This document shows positions 609 through 23,716 of a stretch of 32,400 nt of DNA, one piece after another. The translations under genes were made by a program, and so were the position numbers. How positions within the stretch are numbered: position 1 is the stretch's first letter; the number at the start of each line of letters is the position of its first letter. The DNA comes from Actinomycetota bacterium (GTDB taxonomy: Bacteria > Actinomycetota > Actinomycetes > Nanopelagicales > Nanopelagicaceae). The DNA lies in assembly GCA_016870835.1 (NCBI GenBank), contig VGAG01000013.1:1-32400 (forward strand), read 5' to 3'. The notes under the pieces are model-generated. The model saw only the letters and a program-made list of their open reading frames with translations. It did no database searches and had not been told where the DNA came from.

Positions 609-2688
609 CCTTTACTTCGATTAGTAAAGCTTCAGCTGGTTGAAGAATTGGCGCCGGAAGGCCAATCTCTTCGAGAATCGCACCGGTTGTTGTAACGCCA
701 TCTTTTAGCCACGTAGGTGGCTTAATCAACATCATCCCTGGTTTGCCAGCTGGATAAACAGGTTCAACTCTGTAACTCCTCTTTGGATCAAGAGCGCGAA
801 AACGGAGATTTGGTGAATGGGATGTAGTTGTTGGACGTAATTGGGCAAAGGCAAAGAGGGCCTCATCTTTGCCAACAACCCCATACAAGTAGTGGTCATC
901 ATTTGAATAATCAACTCTTACAACCTCACCGCTATGAAGTAATGAGCGCTTTGCTTTATAGAAGTCAATCCAGTTACGTAAAGTATCAAGTTCGGCCGAA
1001 CTCAATTTAGAGATATCCCACTCGATGCCGGCATGTCCAAAGAGCGCGGTGGTAGCTCTAAAACTAAGTGAGAGTTGGCGACCTGTTTGGTGAGAAGGAG
1101 TCGGACCAACATGAGTTCCTAAGAGTTCCGGCGGGATGAATTGCGTAGTCCAGCGCTGAATTTCTTGGCGAGCTAGAGCATCATTGTTATCACTTACCCA
1201 GAAGCGATCTACATAATCAATAACACCAAGATCTATTCGCCCACCTCCCGATGCGCATGACTCAATTTCAAGGCCCGGACAGTTTCTCTTTAGCTCTCTA
1301 AAGAGTTGATAGATAGCTTTAGTTTGATTATGAATTGCAGCTTTTCCGAGGTATCCAGCATCTACCAGGACTCGATTGTGATCCCATTTGATGTACTTAA
1401 CTTTGTTCTCTTTGATTACTTTAGTTACTGAATTTAAGACATGATCAAATGCAGCTTTATTCGAGAGGTTTAGAACTAACTCATGGCGCCATGTTGGTGG
1501 AACGCGGCCCGCTTCACTTAAAATCCAATTAGGATGCTCCCGGTACAAGTCCGAGTCAGCATTCAACATCTCGCCTTCAAACCAGAGCCCAAATTCCATA
1601 CCTTTGCTGGCGATGTAGTCAGAGAGCGCGCTAAGCCCGGATGGCCATACATCTTTACTTACCTGCCAATCCCCTAGCCCACTTCGATCATTTCTCCTTG
1701 AACCGAACCAACCATCATCAAGTACTACTCGCTCAACGCCAACTTGAGCAGCAACATCGACTAACGCTTTTACCCGCTCCTCGTTATGTTCAAAGTAGAT
1801 TGCTTCCCACATATTTAAAGTAACTGGACGCGCCTTTTTCGGGTGATGGGTACGTGAACGGAGATGTCTATGAAATACCTTAGCTACACCATCTAGCCCC
1901 TGATTTGAATAACAGGCAATTAGTTCTGGGGATGTGTAACTCTCATTTCGTTCCAAAATCATTTCGCCAGGAGCAAGTACCTCACTCGCGCCAATTGACT
2001 TAACTCCCTCATAATTCTTCTCAATGTAATACCGGGTGTCCCCGCTCCATGCCAAAGCGACCGACCAAGCTTCTCCAGATCCAAAATTCGTCTCATGCGT
2101 GAGCGCAATCTCACCAATCGTAAAGTTATGACCACTTCTTCCTTCATTAGATTCACGGACCCAGCGCCCAATATCTATTGATTTGCGTTGCGGGGTCCGT
2201 TCTTTCGACCAGCGACCAACAAAATCTAAGCTTTCTACCGCTTTATCACTTAGAGGAAGCCAATAAGCGAGTTCATTTAGCGTGTATCGCTCTCCTAGAT
2301 TTGTAAGTTGATAACCAATTCTTGCCGCACCATATTGATCGAGTCTTAGCGATATCGATAACTGCAAACTTGCTGAGTCATCTTTTAGAGTTGCCGTAAA
2401 CGACTCTTTGCTCGATTTCAATTCCTTAACTTCAAATTTTGTAGACCAGGATTTTCCGTCACGATGTCCTGCAATTGTTGGATAACCCAACCAACCGCGT
2501 GAGTGCTCGCGCATAACTCCGGGAGTGGCTATCTCGTCAAAATCACTATTTGGAATCGAACGCGCAAATGAGATCTTTGATGGGTCGCCGTGAACGCTCT
2601 TTCCCCAATAACGAATTGCGAGTGCGCCATCGATTACCTCGAGATAGATATCAACCCCGCCATTAGATAAGTGCGCATGAGATGACAT
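601..2688 (-). CDS. galA: alpha-galactosidase, GH36 family
   Basis: A 695-residue protein, close to the usual ~720 of GH36 enzymes. An N-terminal beta-sandwich (about 1-290) is followed by the TIM barrel. [12 protein letters not shown] lies at 323-334, IKWDHNR at 433-439 holds the expected nucleophile D436, [13 protein letters not shown] is at 476-488, and FWVSDNND at 496-503 holds the expected acid/base D500. No signal peptide is seen, so it should act in the cytosol on imported alpha-galactosides such as melibiose, raffinose-type sugars or galactosylglycerol. The released galactose can pass to the divergent galT-galK pair. ATG 2686-2688 is six bases after a TACTCT -10, which predicts a leaderless mRNA. 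Family and reaction are firm; the exact substrate is not. Confidence 0.95.
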
Positions 2689-2693
2689 GCCGG

Positions 2694-2700
2694 TAGAGTA
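2694..2700. promoter_or_regulatory. shared bidirectional -10 element between galA and galT
   Basis: The galA and galT starts are only 12 bases apart (21 if galT starts at 2710). The seven bases TAGAGTA read as -10 TAGAGT on the plus strand (2694-2699) and TACTCT on the minus strand (2695-2700). On the minus strand the hexamer is six bases from the galA ATG, the same sequence and spacing as at nadE. On the plus strand it is ten bases from the galT ATG at 2710. No convincing -35 is seen on either side. Confidence 0.55.
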
Positions 2701-2709
2701 ATGGTCATC

Positions 2710-3819
2710 ATGTCGGGCAAGAAACTAGGCGCAGGGGTTGTAAGAACCGACCGTCTGTTAATGGATGGCCGAACGATTCGCTATTACGACACCCAAGGTC
2801 AAGAACGTAATGCAGTAGATCAGCGCGAACCCGAGACACAACCAAAAATCGGTGAGATGCGACTTGATCCACTTAATAATGAATGGGTTGTTATGGCCGC
2901 TCACCGCCAAACCCGAATTTTCTTACCGCCTAAAGAGTTAAATCCGCTCGCCCCAAGTCGCCCCGGATTCCTAACTGAGATTCCTGAAAGTGATTATGAA
3001 GTTGTGGTCTTTGATAATCGCTCACCCTCACTTCGCGATACTGATGCACCCGAAAAGATCCCTTCCGAACTAACTCTTGAAACTCCGCCGGTTCCAGCTG
3101 CCGGCAAATGTGAAGTTGTCTGCTTTACCTCTAGTTACGATGCCTCTTTTAAAGATCTTTCCCCAAACCAAATCCGTACTGTTCTTGAAGCGTGGCGCGA
3201 TCGCGTTGCAGAGTTATCCAAGGTGGATTACATCGAGCATATTGCGCCCTTTGAAAATCGTGGCGAAGAAGTTGGCGTAACTCTTGCACATCCTCACGGC
3301 CAGATATACGCCTATCCAAATCTTCCGGTTAAGACCACACAGATGCTGGCAGTAGCAACTGCACATAAAAAGCGCACCGGGCGCGTACTTCTAGATGATG
3401 TCGTAGCGCGGGAGTTAAGCGACAAGGTGCGAATCGTTGCTGAAAATAAAGAGTGGGTCGCCTATGTTCCTTATGCCGCTAGGTATCCATTTGAGATTCA
3501 TGTCGCACCAAAGCGCTCTGTAACCGATCTCGCCGAGCTTGACGAACAGGCCTGTGAAGCCTTTCCAACTATTGCCAAGGAAGTATTACAGAGACTCGAT
3601 GGTGTCTTTGATATGAAGATGGCTTACATCGCGGCTTGGCACCAAGCACCAGTTCGAGTTGGGCGAGATGTAATGCGCCTACATTGGCAGATCACAAGTG
3701 TGCGCCGAGCACCCGGCAAACTTAAGTATCTAGCTGGCTCAGAATCAGCATTTGGTGCATTCATGATGGATGTCTGGCCGGAGCAATCCGCCCAACAACT
3801 TCGTGATGTTCGGATCTAA
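2710..3819 (+). CDS. galT: galactose-1-phosphate uridylyltransferase
   Basis: About 369 residues, normal for GalT. The active-site HPHGQIYAYP places the uridylylated histidine in HPH (residues 197-199 counted from the upstream ATG at 2701). FENRG, VPYAARYPFEIHV and KLKYLAGSESAFGAFM are also family blocks. It transfers UMP from UDP-glucose to galactose 1-phosphate in the Leloir pathway. I prefer ATG 2710 because ATG 2701 would lie upstream of the transcript start predicted from the -10 at 2694. Oddly, the CxxC that holds structural zinc in many bacterial GalTs reads NPLA (81-84), and the third ligand region reads SSYDASF with Tyr where other actinobacterial enzymes have His. galK follows after 13 bases in the same operon; galE is not in this window. 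Confidence 0.93.
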   Translation: MSGKKLGAGVVRTDRLLMDGRTIRYYDTQGQERNAVDQREPETQPKIGEMRLDPLNNEWVVMAAHRQTRIFLPPKELNPLAPSRPGFLTEIPESDYEVVVFDNRSPSLRDTDAPEKIPSELTLETPPVPAAGKCEVVCFTSSYDASFKDLSPNQIRTVLEAWRDRVAELSKVDYIEHIAPFENRGEEVGVTLAHPHGQIYAYPNLPVKTTQMLAVATAHKKRTGRVLLDDVVARELSDKVRIVAENKEWVAYVPYAARYPFEIHVAPKRSVTDLAELDEQACEAFPTIAKEVLQRLDGVFDMKMAYIAAWHQAPVRVGRDVMRLHWQITSVRRAPGKLKYLAGSESAFGAFMMDVWPEQSAQQLRDVRI

Positions 3820-9072: not shown

Positions 9073-10244
9073 CAGCCACCCGAGCCAGAATCGCGACCAT
9101 CAACGCTCACCAGTTCTTCTGGATCATCGAGCCAGCCTTGTGGAAGCGATACCGAGCGACCATGCGAACGTCGACCCCTTGGAGCATCTCCAACTTCTTC
9201 CGGATATGGCTGATCGACTAATTGATCAAGTAGTCCTCTCAATTCTTTTAACGATCCAACCATTCCAAGTTTTGGTCGAATTTCCCCTTCAACTCTAAAA
9301 CCTTTTAAGTACCAAGCCATATGTTTGCGCAGATCTCTACATGCCCGATCCTCGCTATCGAAGTAATTGACTAGAAGTTGGGCATGACGCCACATAACTT
9401 CACGGACTTCAAAGAGAGTCGGTAGTGGTCGCTCGCTTTCGCCATTAAAGACTCGAACCAAATCAGCAAATAACCATGGTCTTCCAAGACAACCACGGCC
9501 TACAACAACCCCTGCGCAATTCGTCTCGCGCATCATTCGCAACCCATCATTTCCTGACCAAATATCGCCATTTCCAAGGACTGGAACGCCCGTAGGGGCG
9601 AGATGCTCTACCAAATTTGAGATCTTGCTCCAATCGGCTTTTCCTTCATAAAACTGTTCTGCGGTTCGTGCATGAAGTGCAACCCAAGCAACTCCTAAAT
9701 TTGCTGCAATCATCGCTGCATCGAAATAAGTCTCGTGAGCGCTATCAATTCCAACTCGCATCTTCACTGTTACCGGAATCTTGTATTTCGCTGCACCATC
9801 AACTGCAGCCCTAACTAATTCTGCGAACAGCCTTCTCTTGTAAGGAAGTGCCGCTCCTCCCCCTTTGCGAGTTACTTTTGGAACGGGACAACCAAAATTC
9901 AAATCAATGTGCTCTGCAAGATCTTCTTTGCCAATCATCTCAACAGCTCGGGCAAGATCATTTGGCTGCGTTGCGTAGAGCTGAACGGATCTTGGGCTCT
10001 CGCCCTCGCCTGGAATAATCATTCGAAGCGTTTCTTCATTTCTTTCAACAAGTGCTCTAGCGGTGACCATCTCAGAGACAAAGAGTCCAGCCCCTTGCTC
10101 TCTACATAGAAGCCGGAAGGCGGCGTTGGTGATACCGGCCATCGGTGCAAGTACGACCGGAGTAGTTAGGTCCAGCCCACCATCTCGAATCGGCAGATGT
10201 AGCGGTTTAGTTTTTAACAACCCAATAGCCGTGGCGCTAGCCAT
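9072..10244 (-). CDS. dusB: tRNA-dihydrouridine synthase
   Basis: A 390-residue Dus-family flavoenzyme. [18 protein letters not shown] opens the FMN barrel, [20 protein letters not shown] carries the catalytic cysteine (C119), and [10 protein letters not shown] and [14 protein letters not shown] complete the flavin site. It reduces uridines in tRNA D-loops using NADPH. The last ~45 residues, rich in Arg, Gly and Asp, look unstructured. The ATG lies 31 bases inside the end of glyQS; the first homologous block begins around residue 28, so a slightly later start cannot be excluded. Confidence 0.93.
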
Positions 10245-11593
10245 GCTTCAACCTGGTCTATAGAAATTCGTTCTTGTTTCATCGAATCACGCTCTCTTAT
10301 CGTGACTGCTTGATCGTTTAATGAATCAAAGTCAACGGTGATACAAAACGGAGTTCCCACTTCATCTTGTCTGCGATAGCGCCGTCCGATAGCTCCAGCA
10401 TCATCAAAATCAACGCTCCAGATCTTACGTAACTTTGTGGCCAAGTCGCGCGCCTTTGGTGAGAGATCTGCATTTCTCGAAAGTGGCAAGACCGCAATCT
10501 TGATTGGGGCAAGGCGATGATCAAGACGGAGCACAGTGCGCTTCTCCATCTCCCCCTTCGAATTTGGAGCCTCATCCTCGGTATAGGCATCCATCAAGAA
10601 GGTCAGAGTGCAGCGATCTACGCCGGCCGCAGGCTCAATTACGTAGGGGAACCAGCGCTCATTGGCCTCTTGATCAAACCAGGTTAGATCCTTGCCCGAT
10701 TTCTCGGAGTGAGCCTTCAAATCAAAATCAGTCCGGTTAGCAATACCTTCCAACTCGCCCCATTCAGTTCCAGTAAATTCAAACTTATATTCAATATCGA
10801 CTGTGCGCTTTGAATAATGCGACAACTTCTCTTTTGGATGTTCAAAGAGACGCAAACGATCGGGATTAATTCCTAGGTTCTTATACCAAGCAAGTCTCGT
10901 ATCAATCCATGTTTGATGCCATTCTTCATCGGTTCCTGGGACTACAAAGAACTCCATCTCCATCTGCTCAAACTCACGCGTCCTAAAGATGAAATTGCCA
11001 GGAGTAATTTCATTTCTAAAAGATTTACCAATCTGACCAATACCAAAAGGTGGTTTCTTTCGAGCAGTAGTTGCAACATTTTGAAAATTAATAAAAATTC
11101 CTTGCGCAGTTTCTGGACGCATGTAAGCAAGGCCAGACTCATCTTCAACAGGTCCAAGATAAGTTTTTAATAGCCCTGAGAATTGGCGTGGCGCTGTGAA
11201 CTTTCCCTTATTGCCACAGTTCGGGCAATTCACTTCTTCCAGGCTTGCCGGCTTGCGATTATGTTTCGCTTCAAATGCTTCCTCTAAGTGATCGGCGCGA
11301 AATCTCTTATGGCAAGAGGTGCACTCAGTTAATGGATCAGTAAAGGTTTCGACGTGACCGGATGCTTCCCAAACTTCACGCGCCAGAATCACACAGGAGT
11401 CGAGACCCACAACATCTTCTCGCTCCATCACCATTGATTTCCACCATTGGCGTTTGACATTGTTTTTTAGTTCTACTCCGAGTGGGCCGTAATCCCAAGA
11501 GGCGCGAAGACCGCCATAAATTTCAGATGAGGGATAAACAAATCCGCGTCGCTTTGCGAGGCTAACAATTGTGTCGAGTCGATCTTGGGCCAT
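10214..11593 (-). CDS. glyQS: glycyl-tRNA synthetase (single-chain type)
   Basis: A 459-residue class II synthetase of the homodimeric type. It opens with [21 protein letters not shown] zinc site is formed by C91/C94 and C123/C126. [12 protein letters not shown], motif 2 ([24 protein letters not shown] region) and motif 3 ([16 protein letters not shown]) are intact, and the anticodon-binding domain ends the chain. It charges tRNA-Gly. ATG 11591-11593 is preceded by GGTGG 10 bases upstream. Its place beside a zur relic, uppS and recO is a recognised actinobacterial arrangement. Confidence 0.97.
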
Positions 11594-11700
11594 TTACTTT
11601 TCCACCTGGCGTTCTCCATCCGGCTGGCTGTCGGCGGTGCGCACCGTTCGCAGCTCTTTGAGCTGGGCGCAGGGGTAAATTTTAGATTGAGACACGCTCA
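11594..11700 (-). promoter_or_regulatory. glyQS promoter and structured 5' leader
   Basis: TAAAAT on the minus strand (11679-11684) is a good -10, giving a leader of about 80 bases before glyQS. The leader contains a perfect hairpin CAGCTC-AAA-GAGCTG (11651-11665) and the 12-base palindrome CGGTGCGCACCG (11635-11646). TGAG-N5-CTCA (11688-11700) lies just upstream. No T-box specifier or T-box motif is recognisable, and no leader peptide was found. Confidence 0.35.
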
Positions 11701-11721
11701 AAACCACCCTCCCTAAGAAAA

Positions 11722-11736
11722 TGAAAATCATTCTCA
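11722..11736. promoter_or_regulatory. Fur/Zur-family operator
   Basis: TGAAAATCATTCTCA is a 7-1-7 inverted repeat; outward extension to 11719-11739 gives 9 of 10 matched pairs. The register 11717-11735 matches 16 of 19 bases of the E. coli Fur box consensus, and the core resembles actinobacterial Zur boxes. It covers the expected -35 region of the promoter whose -10 is TACGGT at 11744, and is also upstream of the divergent glyQS promoter. A metal-dependent repressor of the Fur family is the likely binder. Zur is favoured because a zur relic and zinc-ribbon gene follow directly. Confidence 0.7.
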
Positions 11737-11743
11737 TTTGTGC

Positions 11744-11749
11744 TACGGT
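11744..11749 (+). promoter_or_regulatory. -10 element of the zur relic
   Basis: TACGGT, six bases before ATG 11756. The -35 position (about 11721-11726) lies inside the Fur/Zur palindrome, so a bound repressor would block RNA polymerase. A leaderless mRNA is predicted. Confidence 0.45.
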
Positions 11750-11755
11750 CCTGCC

Positions 11756-11896
11756 ATGGATACAGCCATTATCCTCTCCGCAATCACCGCCGTAGCCACC
11801 GCACTTGAAAAGTGGGCGAAAGCTATGGCCGAGGAGCATGGCTACCGAGAAGTTGGACATCTCGCAGAAGTCTTTGGAATCTGTCCAAGCTGCTAA
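11756..11896 (+). pseudogene. zur remnant: C-terminal Fur-family fragment (46 residues)
   Basis: ATG 11756 to TAA 11896 encodes 46 residues. The last ~34 (ALEKWAKAMAEEHGY, then HLAEVFGICPSC) match the very C-terminus of actinobacterial Zur proteins, including the terminal CxxC of the structural zinc site. The winged-helix DNA-binding part and the His-rich metal site are missing; the frame upstream is closed by TAA at 11714-11716. The gene lies where zur lies in other actinobacteria (divergent from glyQS, facing uppS), in the same orientation. A clean start, a promoter and an operator remain, so it may still be made as a small zinc-binding protein. Decay after a deletion is the simpler reading. 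Confidence 0.7.
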
Positions 11897-11898
11897 CC

Positions 11899-12084
11899 AT
11901 GGGTGACATTCGCGGACTTCCAACCCCAATCTGCCCTTTCTGCCACTCAGATTTGATAACTATTACAGTGAAATTTGATCCAGATTCATACGAGATATCG
12001 ATGTATCTTCTTGATAACGCAACTTGCTCCGAATGCGGCGCGCTTTTGACCGCGCCTACTCCGGAAGATTTACCTGCGGCCTAG
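11899..12084 (+). CDS. small double-CxxC (zinc-ribbon-like) protein
   Basis: ATG 11899 follows the preceding stop by two bases (TAACCATGG), so it is probably co-translated with the zur relic. It encodes 61 residues with two knuckles, CPFC and CSEC, separated by about 30 residues of alternating hydrophobic sequence (LITITVKFDPDSYEISMYLL), a typical four-cysteine zinc-ribbon layout. I do not recognise a named family. A longer frame from 11812 exists but runs over the zur relic and is not favoured. Its end overlaps the convergent gene at 12056 by 29 bases. Control by the upstream Fur/Zur box is expected. Confidence 0.7.
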   Translation: MGDIRGLPTPICPFCHSDLITITVKFDPDSYEISMYLLDNATCSECGALLTAPTPEDLPAA

Positions 12085-12418
12085 CGCCCTTCAAGACCTC
12101 TAAATTCTCTTTTGTATCTGGAATTACCCAGCGCTTGAACCCAGGTCCATTAAATTCAAGAATCAATACGGGCTTTCGTTTGTAAACCACGCAGAAATCT
12201 CTACCGCGTCTATGCCACATAGTTCCAAGCATTATTAGAAATGGGAAGCCAGTACCAGGGGCACGGATTCCACGGAGCACCTCGACGGTCCAGGGATTTT
12301 GATGTCTAGTTACTGACTGCAAACTTGAGATTCTTGCCTTGGGATCGCGGCTAAACGCGCCAACATTCTCAAGCCAGTTCATATCATAGCGAAGAAAGTC
12401 GCCTTCAAGTTTTAACAT
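12056..12418 (-). CDS. hypothetical protein, last gene of the recO-uppS operon
   Basis: About 120 residues, not recognised. The sequence looks like a compact soluble beta-rich domain: TGFPFLIMLGTMWHRRGRDFCVVYKR and PVLILEFNGPGFKRWVI suggest several strands, and there is no signal peptide or membrane segment. ATG 12416-12418 overlaps the stop of the DsbA-fold gene by one base (TGATG), so I use it rather than the TTG at 12421. It is the fourth gene behind recO, uppS and the DsbA-fold gene. M. tuberculosis also has a small conserved gene of unknown role between zur and uppS; whether this is its counterpart is not established. Confidence 0.75.
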   Translation of the reverse strand: MLKLEGDFLRYDMNWLENVGAFSRDPKARISSLQSVTRHQNPWTVEVLRGIRAPGTGFPFLIMLGTMWHRRGRDFCVVYKRKPVLILEFNGPGFKRWVIPDTKENLEVLKGARPQVNLPE

Positions 12419-13023
12419 CAATCAAAAATTGGGCCGACGTTGCGAGAACGTTTGATCTCAAAGAATCCCTCATAGCTGGCAACACCAATTACTCCATCCC
12501 AAAGCTTTCCAGCTTCCTCACCCTTTGGTGCAGGTGAGATAACGGGACCGAAAAATGCGATATCGCCCACCGAGATAATCGGCGTTCCTACATCATTTCC
12601 AACCATCTTTAAGCCGCTTTCATGACTTTCAATAATTACAGCATCAAGTGATTCATCGTTCATTGAACTTGATAAATCAGGGGAAAGTCCAACTTCGGCT
12701 AAAGCCTCTTTAAATAGCGCTTCACCAACCTCCATCTTCTTTAGATGGATTCGCGAGCTAATTGCGGTGTAGAGCGGGAGAGTTATAGAGGTGCCCTTTA
12801 CCTTTTGGGCGGCCGCGATAACGCGAGTGCAAGACCAAGAGCGGATTAACTTCTCTTTATACTCAGCAGAAACATCTTTATCGCGATTTAAGTGAGCCAG
12901 CGAGAAGAGGTTCCACTCAATTTCAACATCACGCACCTTCTCTACTTCCAAGATCCAGCGCGATGTCATCCACGCCCAGGGACATAAAGGATCAAACCAG
13001 AAACCAGCCTTCTGCTTAGCCAT
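12418..13023 (-). CDS. DsbA-family protein, mycothiol-dependent reductase-like (Rv2466c type)
   Basis: A 201-residue thioredoxin-fold protein. FWFDPLCPWAWMTSRWILE opens the domain, and VGTPIISVGDIAFFGPVISPAPKGEEAG carries the cis-Pro region and the typical C-terminal half of the Rv2466c group, which reduces substrates with mycothiol. The active-site motif is CPWA (C14, A17) instead of CPWC, so the second cysteine is gone. There is no signal peptide; it should be cytosolic. It lies two bases downstream of uppS and is coupled to the next gene. The assignment to the group is strong; activity with a single cysteine is an open point. Confidence 0.85.
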   Translation of the reverse strand: MAKQKAGFWFDPLCPWAWMTSRWILEVEKVRDVEIEWNLFSLAHLNRDKDVSAEYKEKLIRSWSCTRVIAAAQKVKGTSITLPLYTAISSRIHLKKMEVGEALFKEALAEVGLSPDLSSSMNDESLDAVIIESHESGLKMVGNDVGTPIISVGDIAFFGPVISPAPKGEEAGKLWDGVIGVASYEGFFEIKRSRNVGPIFD

Positions 13024-13025
13024 GA

Positions 13026-13748
13026 TTAAGCCTTTCCAAAGCGTCGTTCGCGCTCAGCGTAGATTTCAATTGCTTTCCAGAGCGTCTCTCTCGTCACGTC
13101 TGGCCACAATACATCTAGAAATACCATCTCTGCATATGCAGATTGCCAGATCAAGAAGTTAGAAGTTCGTTGCTCACCAGAGGAGCGAAGAAAGAGATCT
13201 ACATCGCTCATCTTCGGTTCATCTAAATACTTTGCAAAGACTTTCTCGTTAATCGCATCAGGCTTGATTTTCTTGCGTACTGCATCGCGAGCGATTTGCG
13301 CGGCAGCATCGGCGATTTCGGCTCGTCCGCCATAGTTGACGCACATATTCAATGTAAGGACCTTGTTCTTCTTAGTCATCTCTTCGGCAATTTCTAACTC
13401 TTGCATGACAGATTTCCAGAGCTTCTGTGGCCGGCCGACCCAGCGGACTCGTACTCCCATTTCATTCATCTCATCGCGCCGTCTTCTAATCACATCACGG
13501 TTAAAACCCATCAAGAATTTCACTTCATCTGGTGAGCGCCGCCAATTCTCGGTGGAGAATGCATAAGCAGATAACTCCTTTACGCCAACTTCAATTGCGC
13601 CTTGGACAACATCAAATAGAGCCTTCTCCCCTGCTTCATGCCCTTTTGTTCTAGGCAGACCGCGCTTCTTTGCCCAGCGACCATTTCCATCCATAACCAA
13701 TGCAACGTGATGCGGAACTCGATCCTTGGAAATATTGGGCGGTTTCAC
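13026..13748 (-). CDS. uppS: polyprenyl diphosphate synthase (cis-prenyltransferase)
   Basis: A 240-residue cis-prenyltransferase. [20 protein letters not shown] carries the catalytic aspartate D20, [11 protein letters not shown] follows, and the C-terminal [20 protein letters not shown] and LDVLWPDV motifs are intact. It elongates prenyl diphosphate with isopentenyl diphosphate to the lipid carrier for cell-wall synthesis. The start is GTG 13746-13748, overlapping the recO stop by four bases (GTGA). Confidence 0.96.
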
Positions 13749-23518: not shown

Positions 23519-23716
23519 GTGGCTGCAAAGCGTCGTAAGAAAGCTGCAAAGGCAGCACCAAAGCGTCGTCGTAAGAAGGCTGCTGCAAAGGCTGCCCCAA
23601 AGCGTCGTCGTCGTAAGAAGGCTGCTGCAAAGGCTGCCCCAAAGCGTCGTCGTCGTAAGAAGGCTGCTGCAAAGGCTGCCCCAAAGCGTCGTCGTCGTAA
23701 GAAGGCTGCTAAGTAA
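23519..23716 (+). CDS. highly basic Lys/Arg/Ala repeat protein (histone H1-like tail)
   Basis: GTG 23519 to TAA encodes 65 residues built only of M, A, K, R and P. After a short start (AAKRRKKAAKAAPKRRRKK) come three perfect copies of AAAKAAPKRRRRKK and a final AAK. GAAAGGAA lies six bases upstream. The composition resembles the lysine/alanine tails of actinobacterial HU proteins and histone H1-like proteins, so nucleoid or RNA binding is the best guess; no folded domain is present. Codon use is almost uniform (GCT, CGT, AAG), which suggests high expression. It has its own terminator. Confidence 0.8.
   Translation: MAAKRRKKAAKAAPKRRRKKAAAKAAPKRRRRKKAAAKAAPKRRRRKKAAAKAAPKRRRRKKAAK
23579..23704 (+). 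repeat. three perfect 42-bp tandem repeats inside the basic protein gene
   Basis: Copies at 23579-23620, 23621-23662 and 23663-23704 are identical at every base and each encodes 14 residues. Identity at third codon positions points to recent copy-number change or gene conversion. Copy number is a likely point of strain variation and assembly error. Confidence 0.95.

Follow-up and report, generated by a model that had tools for sequence, protein, structure and literature searches.

A single deletion of about 1.08 kb probably fused the start of a zinc-importer gene of the ZIP family to the end of the zinc-regulator gene zur, leaving in place the box and promoter of their operon and a downstream ORF of 61 codons; we give this reading a probability of about 0.83. 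The window, by which we mean the whole analysed stretch of 32,400 nucleotides, is contig C13 of a 1.01 Mb genome in 49 contigs, 75.7% complete. The deletion is known from this one assembly, and the comparison covers one genome per species. If correctly read, the locus is a snapshot of the one-step loss of a regulated zinc importer and a zinc sensor in a streamlined lake bacterium, which leaves behind an orphan operator and a new ORF, that is, the fossil of a zinc operon and not a new zinc system.

Intact operon in relatives and fusion ORF in the window

Two plus-strand ORFs follow each other in the window, one of 46 codons (11756-11896) and one of 61 codons (11899-12084), the second starting two bases past the stop of the first. 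On one side lies the divergent glyQS, coding for glycyl-tRNA synthetase (10214-11593, minus strand), which adjoins the locus in relatives too. Convergent minus-strand genes lie on the other side, namely a conserved 120-aa gene (12056-12418), which overlaps the 3' end of the 61-codon ORF and is arranged alike in G013, a DsbA-like gene, uppS and recO. Direct reading of the sequence agrees with a preliminary description of this DNA as to the flanks (glyQS divergent, uppS and recO on the other side) and the double-CxxC 61-residue ORF two bases on.

When the locus was aligned across related genomes, a check proposed in the preliminary description, an intact operon was found at the same place. In the nearest relatives G013 and G016, both Candidatus Nanopelagicaceae, the interval from glyQS to the uppS/recO genes holds ZIP, zur and the 61-aa ORF in this order, pointing away from glyQS and towards the 120-aa gene, the DsbA-like gene and uppS; G005, too, has ZIP, zur and the 61-aa ORF. 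The relatives' ZIP transporters are about 294-306 aa long (PF02535 in G016, E 5.5e-20) and their Zur is 121 aa long (PF01475 in G016, E 3.1e-25), the latter having its closest solved structures in 3MWM (S. coelicolor Zur, E 1.1e-38) and 2O03 (M. tuberculosis FurB, E 2.9e-37). The window agrees with the operons of these three genomes in where the locus lies, in its box and promoter, in the start of ZIP and the end of Zur, and in the 61-aa ORF, but it lacks the roughly 1.08 kb that run from codon 17 of ZIP to codon ~91 of zur.

The 46-codon ORF, which reads MDTAIILSAITAVATA-LEKWAKAMAEEHGYREVGHLAEVFGICPSC, consists of two parts. Its start codon and first 16-17 codons (11756-11807, plus strand, certain to 11800, with 11801-11807 common to the Zur side) come from the ZIP-family zinc transporter of the genus, which begins MNTAIILAAITAIATALGG in G016, and about half of the first membrane helix of the PF02535 family is kept. 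Its last 30-31 codons, ALEKWAKAMAEEHGYREVGHLAEVFGICPSC to the stop (11801-11896, plus strand), come from zur; the encoded residues are identical, letter for letter, to the C-terminus of G016 Zur, which ends ...EGSALEKWAKAMAEEHGYREVGHLAEVFGICPSC, and are recognisable as a Zur C-terminus beside 3MWM and 2O03. The match to the end of Zur in the preliminary description is real (E 1.6e-18 to G016 Zur, E 8.9e-8 to residues 96-133 of 3MWM), whereas the ZIP origin of the first 16-17 residues, and the loss of the ZIP gene itself, had gone unnoticed there. Its picture of a collapsed zur holds in that a zur locus has lost its DNA-binding half, with operator, promoter and 61-aa ORF left, but the ORF is a ZIP::Zur fusion: judged by the relatives compared, one deletion took most of ZIP plus the 5' three quarters of zur. 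A C-terminal family match that ends a short ORF may be half a deletion join.

In blastn against the G016 operon, window 11360-11807 corresponds to one end and 11801-13100 to the other (11360-11807 aligns to 2663-3111 of locus L003 at 85%). About 1.08 kb is absent between the two segments, which have 7 bases in common, against G013 as well as G016. The overlap, GCACTTG (11801-11807, plus strand), marks the deletion junction. In G013 and G016, the segment missing here carries GCnCTTG at either end, which points firmly to a deletion with 4-7 bp of microhomology at the join. The missing part, its ends, the in-frame join and the retained box, promoter and 61-aa ORF are established by this comparison; since the nearest relatives are other species, with 85-88% DNA identity in the flanks, we infer the exact pre-deletion bases.

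One deletion here joins parts of two genes that are intact and separate in relatives. We would place ZIP::Zur among the deletion-born fusions already described by Kaul et al. (PMC12803068), in which the 5' part of one gene and the 3' part of another form a new ORF and ancestral functional motifs are lost, with the difference that here both genes come from one operon. The junction is absent from the 23 other genomes of the genus, as is a looser pattern of the fusion from the 272 further family genomes searched (295 other genomes in all). The one other exact pattern match, in G229, is not the fusion, as it falls within an ORF of 416 aa or more that is unrelated, and a weak match in the window's own genome (C26:2253-2351) spans other genes, contains stops and is due to chance. 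No family was found for the 46-aa ORF in Pfam or NCBIfam.

Age of the deletion and state of the fusion peptide

Within the Zur part, 14 of 30 codons differ between the window and G016, all of them synonymously. Four codon changes in this part are specific to the window, and none of them is non-synonymous, against an expectation of 77% in unconstrained sequence (P about 0.003). Because all four are synonymous, the deletion probably happened recently, after most of the window's divergence had built up under an intact zur; a fusion that is itself still under constraint would leave an identical trace, but we think this less likely. The ZIP leader carries two window-only protein changes, N2D and A8S, with Ala8 kept in 15 of 15 aligned relatives. 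These changes fit a loss of constraint on the leader but are too few to prove it.

The lack of any sign of relaxed selection in the Zur part would also suit an artefact of assembly, or an allele carried by a minority in a mixed population whose organism keeps ZIP-zur, as would the fragmented state of the genome (49 contigs, 75.7% complete) and the absence of the deletion from every relative. We consider this unlikely. No more than 7 bases are common to both ends, too few to mislead an assembler whose words are 21 bases or longer, and reads spanning the join are therefore to be expected in the source data. The missing genes are on no contig of the genome, which has no second copy of the deleted ZIP, and N2D and A8S in the ZIP part are as expected if constraint is gone.

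If a single deletion did occur, the ancestor would have carried a zinc-uptake operon read away from glyQS, in the order box and promoter, ZIP importer, zur and 61-aa protein, and its Zur would have repressed this operon at plentiful zinc. About 1.08 kb would then have been lost between the GCnCTTG stretches in the start of ZIP and the end of zur, recently and in the window's lineage or population, removing both functional genes and leaving the 46-aa peptide as a presumably non-functional by-product. The chance of an in-frame join is 1 in 3, and a frame in which translation still reaches the 61-aa ORF could reflect selection; the remaining role of the fusion, if any, may be to carry translation into that ORF, which starts two bases on. 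With Zur gone, the promoter is probably active at all times.

The Zur-derived part of the fusion starts at about residue 103 of 3MWM, so the winged-helix DNA-binding domain (PF01475) is missing, and neither PF01475 nor any other Pfam family matches the 46-aa ORF. From the Cys4 structural zinc site, which is built of two CxxC pairs, the FGICPSC pair is left, while the HLVCKSCG pair of the relatives' Zur falls in the deleted part; the C-terminal zinc knuckle which the preliminary description took to be kept is thus one of two pairs. In numbering by the 3MWM alignment, the zinc-site equivalents left are E105, H122 (which we take to be a zinc ligand of Zur), C130 and C133. Compared with the Zur of S. 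coelicolor and M. tuberculosis, the fusion is without C90, C93, the hinge site with its ligands and the DNA-binding domain. The regulatory sites, M with C79 and H87 and D with H84 and E105 (PMC11077047), have lost their ligands before residue ~103, and every Zur zinc site is short of half its ligands or more. Zur with the substitution C90S, which breaks the same Cys4 site, forms no dimers and does not bind DNA (PMC6103462). As this change by itself abolishes both, the fusion peptide cannot act as Zur, and it has no complete zinc site of its own. With the DNA-binding half and at least half of every site's ligands lost, the 46-aa fusion is most likely non-functional debris.

That ZIP::Zur is a newborn gene in use, with a membrane-seeking head, a Zur tail and a zinc-responsive promoter, and handles zinc together with the 61-aa protein, seems very improbable; it would mean that a cell which has given up its regulated importer as well as its zinc sensor still uses the fusion.

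Zur box, promoter and third gene

The putative operator of the former ZIP-zur operon lies at 11719-11739, where the palindrome reads AAATGAAAATCATTCTCATTT (core ATGAAAATCATTCTCAT, 11721-11737) with nine of ten pairs symmetric, and is recognised by its conservation 5' of ZIP. As the preliminary description had noted, it is a 21-base palindrome and agrees with the Fur consensus at 16 of 19 bases, counted at 11717-11735. The -10 element noted there six bases before the ATG is an extended one, TGcTACGGT (11741-11749, plus strand; ATG at 11756), so that a transcription start at or beside the ATG, of the leaderless type, is expected. The pattern TGnTAnnnT is aligned in all 15 relatives, followed 6-8 bases on by an ATG or GTG start. 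Box and promoter are conserved across the genus and belong to the ZIP gene that heads the operon; the promoter is intact, as the preliminary description held, but was assigned there to zur.

The box ATGAAAATSATTYTCAT or a near copy of it lies 5' of ZIP, over the -35/spacer region, in 13 of the 15 relatives with a readable ZIP locus (G003-G007, G013, G015-G019, G021 and G022), with one change in G003, one in G022 and two in G005. It was not found in the other two, G002 and G023, which have ZIP and no zur behind it, and in which no Zur-like gene was found. Because these ZIP-bearing genomes without Zur are also without the box, the palindrome, conserved 5' of zinc-uptake genes in Zur-bearing genomes, is best read as a putative operator of Zur for the whole ZIP operon. 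A search for further copies, as the preliminary description had advised, gave the window's copy as the single one in its genome at up to one mismatch, and a reversed control pattern gave 0 matches in 24 genomes. At 2-3 mismatches, candidate boxes were hardly commoner than in the control (49 against 40) and were rejected.

A second type of Zur was observed in G006 (C30:2000-7000, locus L103), where two such Zur-like genes lie on either side of a second ZIP gene. A perfect box, ATGATAATGATTATCAT, stands there just 5' of a CobW/COG0523-like GTPase gene, and the second Zur type therefore probably reads the same box as the first.

Homologues of the 61-aa ORF are found behind zur in G005, G013 and G016 and directly behind ZIP in G003, G006, G018 and G021. 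They are 73-89% identical, all four cysteines are invariant and most of the divergence is synonymous, which marks the ORF, as far as comparison tells, as the conserved third gene of the ancestral ZIP operon. Its zinc-ribbon Pfam matches are below cut-off and its AlphaFold model is poor (pLDDT 55); we regard the product as a putative zinc-ribbon-like protein, tied to the ZIP gene by association.

Zinc regulators in the genome and across the genus

The search for a full-length zur or fur advised in the preliminary description yielded a Nur-like gene and no Zur. With PF01475, the single Fur-family gene found in the genome is C14:67-492, closest to 3EYY (E 3.8e-45), an entry entitled 'putative iron uptake regulatory protein' which we take to be S. 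coelicolor Nur; the adjacent gene presumably resembles a folate-binding YgfZ-type protein. Being nearest to Nur, it was rejected as a second Zur, and neither another Zur nor a ZnuA importer was found in the 75.7%-complete genome. A ZIP paralogue, 28% identical, remains at C10:32989-33621, and COG0523/CobW gives one weak match (C16:8149-8616), with no box elsewhere at up to one mismatch.

These results bear on the view of the preliminary description, in which the fusion and the 61-aa protein form a buffer of two zinc-binding microproteins under another Fur-family repressor. The intact promoter and box, the in-frame join and the conservation of the 61-aa protein, with its four cysteines and mostly synonymous divergence, speak for it. 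We nevertheless find it hardly credible. The fusion occurs in one genome and is without C90, C93, the hinge ligands and the DNA-binding domain, which leaves no complete zinc site; the sole Fur-family gene found is Nur-like, and the ZIP-bearing relatives without Zur have also lost the box. The 61-aa gene was already conserved when the operon was intact, and its conservation is silent on a new role.

Among the genomes seen (G001-G023), zur at the glyQS locus (G005, G007, G013, G015, G016, G017, G019 and G022) and a second Zur-like gene elsewhere (G001, G003, G004, G006, G010, G014, G018 and G020) are mutually exclusive, which has the look of one zinc regulator having replaced another long ago. 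In a tree of the DsbA-like neighbour, the window groups with G013, G016 and G019 (support 89/92, moderate), all of the kind with zur at the glyQS locus. Owing to this placement and the mutual exclusion, the absent quarter of the genome is unlikely to hide a second Zur.

In G002 and G023 (loci L116 and L117), ZIP still adjoins glyQS, and zur, the 61-aa ORF and the box are all gone. These are further losses of the zinc regulator, zur having been lost or moved repeatedly within the genus, and the missing boxes offer a small natural experiment on operator decay after regulator loss. G002, the sister of G005 in the tree, kept ZIP and lost zur and box. This precedent, the ZIP paralogue left in the window's genome and the general model of Kaul et al. 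(PMC12803068) make it conceivable, as an addition to the single deletion, that a streamlined lake bacterium with no need of regulated ZIP uptake shed costly genes under selection, so that the deletion spread with the fusion hitch-hiking. We hold this addition to be doubtful, given that the deletion may be a drifting or deleterious variant.

Elsewhere in the window, a 65-codon ORF (23519-23716, plus strand) consists of a 42-bp tandem repeat (TRF, 4.1 copies, 96%), with a likely ribosome site 5' and a terminator-like hairpin 3'. Its product, rich in lysine, arginine and alanine with KRRRRKKAAAKAAP repeats, looks like a small histone-like DNA-binding protein.
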